Position numbers and translations under genes: made by a program
Part shown: positions 10,840 to 37,555 of the stretch, one piece after another
How the letters are laid out: the number at the start of each line of letters is the position of its first letter
How positions within the stretch are numbered: the first letter of the stretch is position 1
Notes under the pieces: model-generated
Seen by the model: the letters and a program-made list of their open reading frames with translations, nothing else
What the model was told of the DNA's origin: nothing
Database searches by the model: none
IMG/VR virus record: IMGVR_UViG_3300043438_000288
Span: 1 to 42,797 of that record
DNA: 42,797 nt
Origin: a virus
Reading direction: 5' to 3' (one strand)

Positions 10840-13800
10840 ATGCCAGTAGTTGGTGAAGCCCATATTATTGTTAGGGCTATCACTACCAATGTTGCCAAAG
10901 ACATCAGAAATGGTTTCAATGGCGTAAGTGGTAGTGGTGGCAAGAACGCACAAAAAGCAGGTGAAAACCTATCTTCAAAGTTTATGCGTGGCTTTAACAA
11001 AGGCTCAGAAATAAACTTCTTGACTGGAATCTCTAAGGGCTTACAAGAGATGACCCCGAGTGCTCAGCAGGGGTATGAAACAATAAATCAGTTAATTGTG
11101 ACTGGCTATAAGGGTACAGTGATGGCTAGCGCCTTTGCTGGGGCTATTGGAGTCATAATTGGTGCTCTTGTTACATTAGTCGCTGCCGCTGCTGGTGCTG
11201 CCACATCGTTAACCGCAGTAATCGGTCTATTCATATCAATGAAGGCTGCTTCGGCGGTAGCCAAATTTGCCATGAATGGCGTAGGCGAAGCGGTTCAACA
11301 AGCAACACAGCAACAAAAAACTCAAGTAGAGACTCTAAAAAATTTACGAGAGGAACTACAGCAACTAAAATTTGATGCCGAAGACGCCGCTCTTGCCGAA
11401 GAAAACGCTGCCATTGCCTTAGAAAAGGCTCGTGAGGGTCTCGCCAGAACTGCTGATTTGCCAGCAGACTCCCGTGCTCGTCGCGAGGCAGAAATTGCTT
11501 ATAAGCAAGCGGACCTAAACTATCGTCGCGCTAAAGATAGAAGCGCTGACCTCAATGAAGAACTTAAGACTGGGGCAAAGGCTAGAGCCAAGGCTGCCTC
11601 TCAAGACCCATATGCCAACCTCACCAACACTCAAAAGGGGTTTGCCAAGTTTCTTGTAAAACTACAGCCAATTTTTAAGAACCTAAGGGAAGTGGTAGCG
11701 CAAGGTTTCTTGCCAGCGTTACAAAACGGGCTTACTCAACTAATTACTTCTGGGACTTTCAATGACATTTTTAACGGAATCAAAAGCATTGGTGATGCCC
11801 TAGGAAAAGCAACAAAAGTTGTATTTGACTTCTTCTCCTCGGCTGAGGCTGGAAGATATCTAAGAGAAATCTTTGAAACTATTTCTCAGGTTACAAAAGA
11901 GTTTGGACCTATTCTCTCTAAGTTCTTTAAAGCGTTCCTAAAAATTCTTGCCGCCTCCTCTCCAATTGTTCTGAGGCTTGCTAACTTTATTTCTAGAATT
12001 CTCGGGGACTTCAATGAATTACTAGATGCCACTGGCGATGTTGGTCTTCGCAAATTCTTTATCACAGCCGCTGATATGGCTGGCAAGTTTGGCAAGATTT
12101 TTGGCAACATTTTTGGCGGGTTTTCCAAGATTGTTATGGCTAACTTTGGTCCTGGTACTGGTGGAGACTATCTCCTCAACTGGTTGATTGAGGCTACTCA
12201 GGGCTTTGGCACAATGGGCAAGAGTGGTGGAGACCTAAAGACTTTCTTCAATGGCGTTGCTCTAAACGCTAAAAAAATGTTTAGCGGTATTGGTAGCATC
12301 ATCGAGCAAATTGTCAAGATTGGTGCTGACCCTAACATCGGTGCTTTCTTTGAAAAAATTAAGGAGGCTTCTCCATATTTCAGTAGCATCTTGAAAAAGG
12401 CTGGACAAGCACTACCTACAGTTGCAACTTTGATTGTAAAAATTGTTGAGATTATTGACAAACTTACAGACGACGCTGCTATTGACAACTTCTTCAAAAC
12501 CTTGGTTGCTGGTGCTGATGTGTTTAGCAACATACTTGGTAACCCAGTTGTGAAGAGCATTATGGCGTTTACTGGTCAAATCAAGGCTGTAACGCTAGGT
12601 GTTGGTGAAATTGGCAAAAAGGCTAAACCAGTATTTGACTTCCTGACCCAAACTGTTACAAATGTTACTGGGTTCTTCGGTAAAGCCCAAGAAGTAATTA
12701 CTGGCACAAAAGAAGCGTTTGGCACCGTTGTAACAGTAAACGCTGGGCTAAGGAGCGCTGTAAAGAAGACTACCGACAGTTTCAAAGCAGCAGCAAAGAT
12801 ATGGCCTAAGTTCTCAAGCGGTGTAAACCAAGCCAGAGACTTTACTGGACTTTTATCTAAGCAAACTGGAGCGTTTATGAAAAACGCTACAGAAGGTACT
12901 CGCAAACACCTTAACGGGAACACGATGCTTGTTAGAGGTTATGGTCGCCTAAAACTCGCCATTGAGACTACAGCCCTAAGATTCAAACTATTTAAGATTG
13001 GGTTCCTAAAAGGATTCACTCAGATGGCTGCTAGCCAGAACAAGTCTATTGCCCTGTTTGGAAGAATGGGTGTGGCTATGATGGCGGCTAACCCTATCCT
13101 GCTAATTATCGGTCTGATTGTTGCCGCCTTTGCTGTGTTGTTCACAACAAATGAAAAATTCCGCAATCAAATAATTGAAACATTCCAGCCAGCCCTAGAA
13201 GCACTAAAAGAGGCTTTTGCGACAATTATGGTTGCCCTACAGCCAGTGATTCTTTCTTTCAAGTACCTTATGGAGACTCTTTTTGGTGGCTCCAACGGCG
13301 GTGGCGGTCCCCTAACTAAATTCTTTGTAGTTTTGGCTGAAGTCATTAGCAAACTTGTAGTTGCCCTAGCACCACTTATTGCTAACTTGATTAGCAAGTT
13401 GATGCCAATTGTAGAGAAATTACTTCAAATTCTCATTCCGATTGTTGAAATATTTATGACGCTTGTAAGCGGAATATTAGAGGCACTTGCTCCTGTACTT
13501 ATCGTTCTTGCTGACGCATTTGGCGCAATTGTGACTGTAATTATGGACCTATTGATGCCAGTAATTGACGGTCTTATGGGATATCTGATGCCACTGTTCA
13601 CTTTCTGGACTCAGATGATTCAACTTATTGCTGGATTCTTTGAGGCTCTATTCTCTGGCGACTGGGATAAGTTTGGGAAACTATTCCGCGACTTGGGTCA
13701 AGGAATTGTTCAGTCTTTGGCTGATATGTTTACTGGGTTCATCAACCTACTAATCACCTTGTTGAATATGCTATTCAAGGTTGCAATGTTGCACCCGCTT

Positions 13801-29719: not shown

Positions 29720-29798
29720 TTAGAGATACTATCGAAAAAAGTAAATAACTATTCGCGTTTCGTGATAGTATGTATGTAATGACGAAAGGAAGCCAACT
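29720..29798 (+). promoter_or_regulatory. Gap with inverted repeat and extended -10 before the helicase gene
   Basis: This 79-bp gap has TACTATCGAAA at 29727-29737 and TTTCGTGATAGTA at 29758-29770, which pair over 11 bp with a 2-base bulge around a 20-base loop. The right arm contains an extended -10-like TG-A-TAGTAT (29763-29771). No good -35 box is visible. An operator overlapping a promoter is a reasonable reading; there is no T-run for a terminator. AAAGGAAG precedes the helicase ATG. Confidence 0.45.
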
Positions 29799-31622
29799 AT
29801 GGCTATCAATGTAGAACTAGATTCAACGGGTTCAGACATTATTATTGACGCAGACTGGCGTTTCAAGGAACTCTGTAAGAGTCTTCCTGGCGCTACCTTT
29901 GACGGCTCAATCAGCAGGTGGAAAATTCCTGTGTCTTGGTCTGCTTGCCTAGCACTACGCTCAACATTCAAAGATGAACTTGTACTCGGCGATGCCCTAA
30001 AGTCTTGGGCTTCTAACGAGCGTGCTGTCAGGATTGACCCTGCTATGGCTCTACGCGACCTAGAAAACTTACCCGATGGTGAGACTGGCAATGAAGACCT
30101 ATTCCCCCACCAGCGTGCTGGAGTGAAGTATTTAGCCGTTGCTAAGCGAGCACTTCTCGCCGACGAACCAGGTTTAGGTAAGACCGCTCAGGCTATTCGT
30201 GGTCTAAAGCAGATTCAGGAAAATGGCGATGCCGTATTCCCAGCAATGATTGTTTGCCCTAACACTCTGAAGAAGAACTGGCAACGCGAGTTCAAGAGAT
30301 GGTGGCCAGAAGTAAAGGTACAAGTTATCTCTGGAACTGCTACGCAACGCCGTAAGCAGTTTGAAGAAGAGGCTGACATCTATGTAATCAACTGGGAATC
30401 ACTACGCACCCACTCACGCCTAGCACCTTATGGTGCGATTGCTCTTGCTCGCTGTAAGGCTTGTAAGGGTCACGACGACCGAGTAACTGAAACTCGATGC
30501 GAAGTTCACGAGCGTGAACTAAATCGTATTGACTTCAAGGCTGTGGTTGCTGACGAAATGCACCGCTCAAAAGACCCTAAGTCTAAGCAGAGCCGTGCCC
30601 TATTCGCAGCAAGCGGTAACGCTGAGATTCGTTTTGCTCTTACTGGAACTCCTGTGGCAAACAATGTCCTAGATATGTGGGCAATTCTTCACTGGATTAG
30701 CCCTAAGGAATTCCCTACAAAGAGTAAGTGGATTGACCGTATGGTCGACACTATGCTCAATGCGTTTGGTGGAATGATGGTTCTTGGACTAAAGCCACAT
30801 ATGGAAGACGAGTTCCACAAGACTGTCGACCCTATGATGCGTCGTATGCTCAAGGCTCGTGTACTTCCTTGGCTACCTGAGATTATGAACGAGCGTCGCG
30901 ATGTCGAGATGTCTACTAAGCAGAAGAAAGCCTACGAGCAGATGCGCGACAATATGATTGCGTTGCTTGAAGACCCGTCTGGCAGTGCTGACACTTTGGT
31001 AGCACCTAGCGTTCTTACTCAGACCACTCGCCTACTTCAGTTTGCTAGTTCATACGCTGAAATCAAGGCAGACGAGAAGACAGGTGAGCCTAAGGCTACT
31101 TTGTCAGCCCCCTCTTGTAAGGTTGATGCTCTAATGGATGACATCAAAAACGGAGACTTCGGCGACGACAGCGTTGCTGTCTGTGCTGTATCTCGTCAGT
31201 TGCTAGAACTTCTTAGTGAAGAACTAGATAAAGCGAAGATTCCACACGGAATGATTACTGGAGCACAGAACGAAGAAGAGCGTCAAGAATCTATTGACGA
31301 CTTTCAATCTGGTCGCACCAAGTGGATTCTGTTCACAGACAAGGCTGGTGGTGTCGGTGTAACACTTACCGCAGCACGCCGTCTCGTTATGCTACAGCGA
31401 CCTTGGTCGCTCGTAGACCACAAGCAAGCACTAGACCGTGTCCACCGTATCGGTTCTGAGATTCACGACTCTGTTGTGATTATGGATTATGTAACTGAGG
31501 GCACTCTCGAAGAGCGAGTTATTCAAGTTCTAGAAACTAAGGCTGAAAACTTTGAGCAGATTGTTCGAGACAAGAGTAAGTTATTAGAGTTGCTAAAAGA
31601 TGACAAGGCAGGTAAGTTGTAA
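29799..31622 (+). CDS. SNF2-type superfamily 2 helicase
   Basis: This 607-residue protein has an N-terminal segment of about 65 residues resembling HARP/SMARCAL1-type domains (LCKSLPGATFDGSISRWKIP). The helicase core follows: motif I ADEPGLGKTAQAI (about residues 120-132), motif II ADEMH (about 251-255; DEMH in place of DEAH), motif III ALTGTPVANN (about 280), and in the second lobe FTDKAGGVGVTLTAA and QALDRVHRIGSE (about 542). It remodels DNA or moves along dsDNA to help replication or recombination, by analogy with SMARCAL1-like fork-remodelling enzymes; the exact job is not known. A strong RBS is present and the next gene starts 3 bp after the stop. Confidence 0.9.
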   Translation: MAINVELDSTGSDIIIDADWRFKELCKSLPGATFDGSISRWKIPVSWSACLALRSTFKDELVLGDALKSWASNERAVRIDPAMALRDLENLPDGETGNEDLFPHQRAGVKYLAVAKRALLADEPGLGKTAQAIRGLKQIQENGDAVFPAMIVCPNTLKKNWQREFKRWWPEVKVQVISGTATQRRKQFEEEADIYVINWESLRTHSRLAPYGAIALARCKACKGHDDRVTETRCEVHERELNRIDFKAVVADEMHRSKDPKSKQSRALFAASGNAEIRFALTGTPVANNVLDMWAILHWISPKEFPTKSKWIDRMVDTMLNAFGGMMVLGLKPHMEDEFHKTVDPMMRRMLKARVLPWLPEIMNERRDVEMSTKQKKAYEQMRDNMIALLEDPSGSADTLVAPSVLTQTTRLLQFASSYAEIKADEKTGEPKATLSAPSCKVDALMDDIKNGDFGDDSVAVCAVSRQLLELLSEELDKAKIPHGMITGAQNEEERQESIDDFQSGRTKWILFTDKAGGVGVTLTAARRLVMLQRPWSLVDHKQALDRVHRIGSEIHDSVVIMDYVTEGTLEERVIQVLETKAENFEQIVRDKSKLLELLKDDKAGKL

Positions 31623-36690: not shown

Positions 36691-36719
36691 ATAATAAACG
36701 GCGTGTTGCGCTGATTTAT

Positions 36720-36756
36720 TCTATAAAACAAGTTATTCTTTTATAGAGGTAATTCT
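36720..36756 (+). promoter_or_regulatory. 9-bp inverted repeat overlapping the ribosome binding site
   Basis: TCTATAAAA (36720-36728) and TTTTATAGA (36739-36747) form a perfect 9-bp inverted repeat around a 10-base loop. The right arm runs into the Shine-Dalgarno AGAGG (36745-36749) of the gene starting at 36757. Folding would partly hide the ribosome binding site, so translation could depend on temperature, a protein or upstream ribosomes. Alternatively it is an operator at DNA level, as TATAAA lies in the left arm. Confidence 0.5.
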
Positions 36757-37098
36757 ATGAAAGATTCACGCAAAGGCGAAACTCTATGGAGTGAGTGGTT
36801 CGGCAACGGCTACTCAAAAGAAACTCCAGAGTCGCTAGTCTTCTACACGGAAGACCATGTAGACATCCATAACGAAATAGTGAGACGCGCTCTAGCCTCT
36901 GCCATACAGCGAGACGGTACAACCGACTCTCTTGGCGAGGCTTTTCGTCTACTAGACGGTCCAGTATTAGTTAGTCACGGCTACGCTGGATTTATTGATG
37001 AAGAACTCACCCAATGTGATAAAGACGCAATGACAGCCTACGAAGACGAGGCAGAAAGCGTTCTACACATCACTTGGGTTGAGATAAATGGCAATTGA
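36757..37098 (+). CDS. Hypothetical protein
   Basis: This 113-residue protein is not recognised. It is acidic and rich in aromatic residues near the start (LWSEWFGNGY), with a helical middle (DIHNEIVRRALASAIQRDG) and a beta-containing end (AESVLHITWVEINGN). It has no signal peptide or membrane segment. It overlaps the whiB-like gene by 11 bp, so the two are probably translated together and may be functionally linked. The ribosome binding site is partly inside an inverted repeat. Confidence 0.6.
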   Translation: MKDSRKGETLWSEWFGNGYSKETPESLVFYTEDHVDIHNEIVRRALASAIQRDGTTDSLGEAFRLLDGPVLVSHGYAGFIDEELTQCDKDAMTAYEDEAESVLHITWVEINGN

Positions 37099-37555
37099 CG
37101 ACACTAACTGGCAAAGTGAGTCGCTCTGTGCCAAAAAAGAAAATGAGCACATGATTGAGTGGTTCTTCTCTGAAGAACCTGAGGAAAAGTATGCTGCTAA
37201 AAACTTATGCTTTAGTTGCCCTGTAAGAAAGGACTGTATCAAATATGCCCTTGAGCAAAAAGAAATTTGGGGTGTTTGGGGTGGCAGAGATGAAAACGAG
37301 ATTCGTAGGATTCTATCTGTCGATGCTAACGGTGACGAATATCGCAGAGGTCGCTACCCTCAGTGTCCTTTCTGTTTCGCTCGTACTAGCAAACTAAAGA
37401 CATACATTGTTGACTTGCCAGGTGGTGGTCGGTGGACTACCGCTCGTATGGTTGAGTGTACCGATTGTGGATTTGCTTGGCGTAGTCGCACAAGTGCCAA
37501 TGCGGTAAATGCTTATCACGCTCAGAAGAGCGACAAGAAAAAGCCTAAGAAGTAA
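37088..37555 (+). CDS. whiB: WhiB-family regulator fused to a C-terminal zinc ribbon
   Basis: This 155-residue protein has the four cysteines of a WhiB iron-sulfur cluster (C14, C41, C44, C50; FSCPVRKDC) and the hallmark turn WGVWGG (residues 61-66). WhiB proteins bind sigma factor SigA through the Fe-S domain and regulate transcription; phage WhiB proteins can alter host gene expression. After a linker there is a second metal site, CPFC (93-96) and CTDC (124-127) with Trp and Gly around it, as in zinc ribbons, and a basic tail (QKSDKKKPKK). Typical phage WhiB proteins end soon after the GVWGG region, so the ribbon is an extra domain. It ends 3 bp from the convergent metallophosphoesterase gene. 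Confidence 0.9.
   Translation: MAIDDTNWQSESLCAKKENEHMIEWFFSEEPEEKYAAKNLCFSCPVRKDCIKYALEQKEIWGVWGGRDENEIRRILSVDANGDEYRRGRYPQCPFCFARTSKLKTYIVDLPGGGRWTTARMVECTDCGFAWRSRTSANAVNAYHAQKSDKKKPKK

Follow-up and report, generated by a model that had tools for sequence, protein, structure and literature searches.

According to the DNA-binding passages of a 2018 review of the Wbl proteins, WhiB7 was the only member of this family with a recognised DNA-binding motif, and it was difficult to explain how the others locate specific promoters (PMC6282962). The same passages describe this motif as an AT-hook, C-terminal to and beyond the WhiB domain, which contacts AT-rich DNA upstream of the -35 element (PMC6282962). 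In WhiB3, replacement of F31, F32 or W76 by alanine abolishes binding to region 4 of σA (σA4) (PMC10245118). The only phage WhiB studied experimentally is that of TM4, which according to a 2021 survey regulates host whiB2 in a dominant-negative manner and has a link to superinfection exclusion (PMC8612146). The phage protein described here shares with WhiB7/WblC and WhiB3 the Fe-S cysteines, the G(V/I)WGG turn, the σA4 aromatics and a C-terminal region that may contact DNA, but where WhiB7 has the AT-hook RGRP and WhiB3 an arginine-rich motif it carries a four-cysteine ribbon and a basic helix. Like TM4 WhiB and other phage WhiBs it is a phage-borne Wbl protein, whereas the mycobacteriophage WhiBs seen here are plain, without a ribbon. 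The Wbl family is known, and the ribbon-bearing form with a basic tail is apparently new and widespread in one large lineage of actinobacteriophages.

The gene, hereafter whiB-ribbon, lies in a virus record of 42,797 bases with a G+C content of about 42-50%; this whole stretch of DNA is called the window, and the features of the locus are collected in Table 1. Residues 8-73 of the protein matched the Pfam WhiB model with an E-value of 1.2e-16 and a score of 61.4 bits (cut-off 23.6 bits), and all four Fe-S-type cysteines (C14, C41, C44 and C50, spaced C..CxxCx5C) are in place, with GVWGG following at residues 62-66. An earlier note on this DNA was therefore right to call the N-terminal half a complete WhiB domain, which by its cysteine pattern would bind a [4Fe-4S]-type cluster; the redox sensing that the note ascribed to this domain is putative. 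All 25 family members compared with the Pfam WhiB model matched it at E ≤ 0.1. The note had also placed a CPFC...CTDC site and a basic tail in the C-terminal half; both are present and correctly located (C93-x2-C96...C124-x2-C127), the cysteines being found in every one of 66 homologues. Its account of this half was nevertheless incomplete, as the half also holds two further elements, a strongly conserved linker (consensus LSVxxxGxExRRxR[YF]P) and, after the ribbon, a helix (consensus RTSANAVxAY), and so goes beyond a pair of CxxC knuckles. The AT-hook RGRP was sought in the window protein and was absent, RRGRYP occurring instead; unlike the AT-hook of WhiB7, the family linker RRxR[YF]P has a variable third residue and no conserved glycine. 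Net charge is partitioned along the window protein, the WhiB half carrying -5, the ribbon +3 and the tail +6; from residue 134 onwards, the tails of family members average +7.2 and none falls below +3.

Table 1. Positions in the window of the whiB-ribbon gene, its protein parts and its upstream region.
Feature	Position	Strand	Details
whiB-ribbon gene	37088..37555	+	ATG start, 155 aa
WhiB domain, aa 8-73	37109..37306	+	Pfam PF02467; conservation
Conserved linker LSVDANGDEYRRGRYPQ, aa 76-92	37313..37363	+	R86, R87, R89 invariant (66 sequences)
Zinc-ribbon-like domain, aa 93-135	37364..37492	+	C93, C96, C124, C127, 66/66 each; AlphaFold2
C-terminal helix RTSANAVNAYHAQ and lysine-rich tail, aa 134-155	37487..37552	+	net charge +6; AlphaFold2 helix 134-150
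Upstream partner gene, 113 aa	36757..37098	+	overlaps whiB-ribbon gene by 11 nt; AlphaFold2 alpha/beta protein
Operon promoter region	36691..36756	+	GCGTGT 36701-36706; -10-like TATTCT 36734-36739, 27 bp apart; no TTGACA -35

Conservation was assessed on 66 distinct, non-redundant homologues. C14, C41, C44, C50, C93, C96, C124 and C127 were each present in 66/66, and since all eight are invariant the second cysteine site is not due to chance. The invariant residues other than cysteines included R73, R74, R86, R87, R89, R115, W116, F129, W131, R134, N138 and Y143. The ratio dN/dS was about 0.11 for the WhiB half versus about 0.06 for linker plus ribbon, indicating stronger purifying selection on the ribbon half. 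These data bear on the idea that the protein is an ordinary phage WhiB in which the ribbon merely stabilises the fold and has no function of its own. Many WhiB proteins do have variable tails, but here conservation of the ribbon, the linker and the helix that follows equals or exceeds that of the WhiB domain, and R86, R87, R115, R134 and N138 are invariants of the surface type, so that we hold this idea to be improbable.

The AlphaFold2 model of the ribbon reached a pLDDT of about 80, while the WhiB half was poorly modelled (46-69). Two CxxC knuckles sit on a small β fold with strands at 103-109, 118-124 and 130-132; the C-terminal half is thus predicted to be folded as a zinc ribbon rather than unfolded, and its four cysteines would bind zinc. 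The ribbon model aligned weakly (Z ~3) with the ribbons of Rpb9, A12.2, TFIIS and NrdR. Its top viral structural match was a 142-residue protein (E 3.8e-7), of the same length as the homologue in Racecar, and viral Lar proteins came next among the Foldseek matches, with weak E-values. Lar restriction alleviation proteins were also the best Pfam/NCBIfam matches of the ribbon, below threshold in 10 of 12 members. Classification of the ribbon as Lar was rejected, its scores lying below the curated cut-offs (21.4 versus 28.6 bits for PF14354, 23.2 versus 39.6 bits for TIGR03655). The Lar and VdcD-ShdD ribbons share with it the CPxC...CxxC pattern, a similar spacing and the W-R/S context; it differs from them in scoring below these cut-offs and in being joined to a WhiB domain in every member read. 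Both the profile and the Foldseek matches could speak for a Lar-like counter-defence or protein-binding module mounted on a WhiB scaffold, with no promoter recognition. This seems very unlikely to us: besides the low scores, the likeness may be that of a generic ribbon, as the ShdD/VdcD decarboxylase ribbon also resembles Lar, and joining a sigma-binding domain to restriction alleviation makes no obvious sense.

Close relatives of the whiB-ribbon gene were found at 27 IMG/VR loci. A profile search with the linker and ribbon patterns gave 450 pattern matches, at least 391 of which encode relatives, all of them viral-contig loci. In GenBank, the full-length form occurs in eight phage records and a shorter form of the ribbon in four Arthrobacter phages (Atuin, Racecar, Talia1610 and Mimi), and none of these phage homologues has an annotation beyond WhiB family. 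The full architecture is shared by the metagenome-assembled phage DSL-LC01, at 56% identity, and, at 42-50% identity, by six Microbacterium phage records, among them Pumpernickel, Big4, Zooman, Cece and A3Wally. A search for the same architecture in phages and actinobacteria, which the earlier note had proposed, thus recovered many phage loci; a scan of 396 Actinomycetota genomes with a ribbon profile did not find it, and the genomes of 84,980 species held no confirmed relative. In a positive control this profile recovered viral records at 1e-41 to 1e-44 but not the short Arthrobacter ribbon; strongly diverged ribbons could therefore have escaped the scan. With zero occurrences in both genome sets, a cellular origin or common bacterial occurrence was rejected. 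The ribbon is not common to other phage proteins either, as tblastn with the Pumpernickel ribbon against 50,697 phage records returned only WhiB-ribbon genes. Within the sets searched, WhiB-ribbon is restricted to phages. The earlier note had asked whether the architecture is already common in WhiB proteins; it is so to the extent of hundreds of contigs in one phage lineage, but it was not found in the cellular genomes searched.

A tree was built from the WhiB domain alone, excluding the ribbon and comprising 88 columns only. It grouped the family with the Microbacterium and Arthrobacter forms (91/95) and placed the WhiB of Streptomyces plasmid pS1D4-14.2 and gp44 of phage Bogota outside this clade. 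Other Rhodococcus and Streptomyces plasmid matches were discarded: those read were plain WhiBs, pS1D4-14.2 excepted, and several tblastn matches overran the gene. The pS1D4-14.2 protein is a WhiB with a CPVC...CLACG ribbon and Bogota gp44 a WhiB with different knuckles. Both resemble the window protein in that a C-terminal cysteine-knuckle module follows the WhiB domain, but their knuckles are different, shorter or double. Because of their position outside the family clade, these modules are probably separate fusions. It would seem from these comparisons that one WhiB-ribbon lineage arose in phages and that similar additions happened at least once more.

Full-text searches of 5.39 million open-licence papers brought up nothing relevant on a WhiB with a zinc ribbon, a zinc-finger fusion or sigma appropriation. 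A ribbon-bearing WhiB is not described in the DNA-binding passages of the 2018 review (PMC6282962), the words "zinc" and "domain architecture" do not occur in the text of the 2021 survey of WhiB in actinobacteriophages (PMC8612146), and the part of the Dishui Lake paper that names two WhiBs in DSL-LC01 mentions no ribbon. An architecture that is conserved in 66 homologues has no account in the open-licence texts searched, which supports the novelty anticipated for it. A third WhiB-domain frame, within a 178-aa open frame, was noticed at 12815-13018 of DSL-LC01 (OQ999401.1).

The best PDB matches of the protein were WhiB proteins, including WhiB7 in 7kif/7kim. By alignment, F26 (65/66 homologues), F27 (66/66) and W64 (65/66) are the counterparts of WhiB3 F31, F32 and W76, and the turn itself is conserved, with G62 in 66/66. 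That the N-terminal half is a σA-binding domain, as first claimed from the window alone, is well supported by inference from these interface aromatics. In four loci of Microbacterium phages the turn reads GTRGG or GTRAG, so that they retain the ribbon and lack the tryptophan of G(V/I)WGG that contacts σA in other WhiB proteins; the sigma contact is thus not conserved throughout and may differ in these phages. Conservation of the sigma interface would also suit a host-takeover inhibitor that occupies σA region 4 and displaces or antagonises host WhiBs, leading to growth arrest and superinfection exclusion, with the ribbon strengthening binding to polymerase or sigma. TM4 WhiB provides a precedent for such a protein, and ribbons are common folds of RNA polymerase subunits. 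We nevertheless consider it unlikely, as the long basic C-terminus and the promoter box described below point to DNA, and a TM4-like job could be done by other WhiBs of the same phages: one or two additional short plain WhiBs (79-120 aa, no ribbon) were seen in most phages examined. The presence of these short proteins beside WhiB-ribbon suggests a division of labour.

A gene of about 113 aa precedes nearly every family member. It mostly overlaps the whiB-ribbon gene, and in a few cases abuts it or is separated by a gap of about 40-50 nt. DSL-LC01 has it at 50% identity and the Microbacterium phages carry a diverged version, while in Atuin and Racecar a small gene occupies this position with only 15-17% identity. 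The AlphaFold2 model of the protein was confident (pLDDT 86.5). No Pfam or NCBIfam match was obtained for it and its PHROGs matches were all insignificant; the search for a fold relative gave only weak uL23-like matches (Z up to 3.8), which were rejected, and no significant viral match. The partner gene is conserved and undescribed and its operon linkage to whiB-ribbon is plain; its product looks like a dedicated, phage-only partner.

Inspection of the operon promoters of the close lineages revealed a GCGTGT box in 14 of 18 (shuffle mean 0.1, a comparison that overstates the significance of the box because the promoter copies are related to each other), together with a -10-like hexamer and no TTGACA. 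Where measured, the box lies 25-30 bp upstream of the -10 hexamer. None of 27 operon promoters of more distant lineages had it. In the window and three relatives of about 133-135 kb, CTTGAC -35 elements were found in intergenic regions 46 times versus 5.5 expected, and GCGTGT or ACACGC occurred within 40 bp upstream of 11 of these 46 intergenic sites versus 5 of 313 elsewhere. By analogy with other Wbl proteins, a box upstream of the -35 element is where their DNA contacts would be expected. Across the whole window plain GCGTGT is not enriched (17 versus 17.5 expected). A shared late-promoter motif was rejected, the inspected orthologous regions upstream of structural genes showing no common GCGTGT box. 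WhiB-ribbon is a candidate reader of the box, and other regulators, such as the short WhiBs of the same phages or a host factor, could also read it. Two further elements were noticed. Promoter cassettes with a CTTGACA -35 followed by AATGTCA are repeated in three relatives (G001, G002 and G003, seven loci in each), and TTGACAaATGTCA in these cassettes is a partial palindrome over the -35 that looks like an operator. An inverted repeat, ATACTATC...GATAGTAT with a loop of about 30 nt, lies at 29720-29798 of the window, ahead of a gene at 29799; both arms are changed together in G001 (ATACTAGC...GCTAGTAT), and this covariation may reflect conservation of a structured or regulatory element.

We favour, with a probability of about 0.55, the reading that the protein is a σA-docked phage Wbl transcription factor in which the ribbon module stands where host WhiB proteins have their DNA-contacting tail. 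The N-terminal [4Fe-4S]-type domain would dock on region 4 of the host primary sigma factor, like WhiB1, WhiB3 and WhiB7, and the C-terminal module (RR linker, ribbon, basic helix and tail) would substitute for the AT-hook or basic loop that, in host Wbl proteins, touches DNA immediately upstream of the -35 element. We infer this docking, and a DNA contact near -40, from the interface aromatics, the WhiB7 analogy and the partitioned charge; the ribbon and basic tail come after the same turn and helix as the C-terminal DNA contact of WhiB7. Zinc ribbons also mediate protein contacts, which counts against a DNA-reading role. Holoenzyme carrying WhiB-ribbon would be guided to phage promoters, including, in lineages near that of the window, the -35-less promoter of its own operon, and the co-translated 113-aa protein probably modulates it. 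WhiB-ribbon would thereby bind DNA, activate transcription and probably steer host RNA polymerase to viral promoters. In the sigma appropriation of phage T4, AsiA/MotA present one surface to sigma region 4 and another that reads DNA near -35. The proposed action of WhiB-ribbon resembles this in its working principle, with no homology claimed, but both functions would be joined in one polypeptide and activation here is putative. The odds are rather against the most complete version of this scheme, which we put forward tentatively: the WhiB half would hold σA region 4, the ribbon would read GCGTGT upstream of the -35 element and the phage-only partner would regulate, so that no phage sigma factor or polymerase would be needed.

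In this phage lineage, Wbl proteins would thus come with a folded module that is a candidate for reading DNA, with a defined candidate site and with a partner of their own. Because such phages infect cultivable Microbacterium strains, the promoter specificity of sigma-docked Wbl proteins would become directly testable. These results suggest a way for large actinobacteriophages to control host RNA polymerase.
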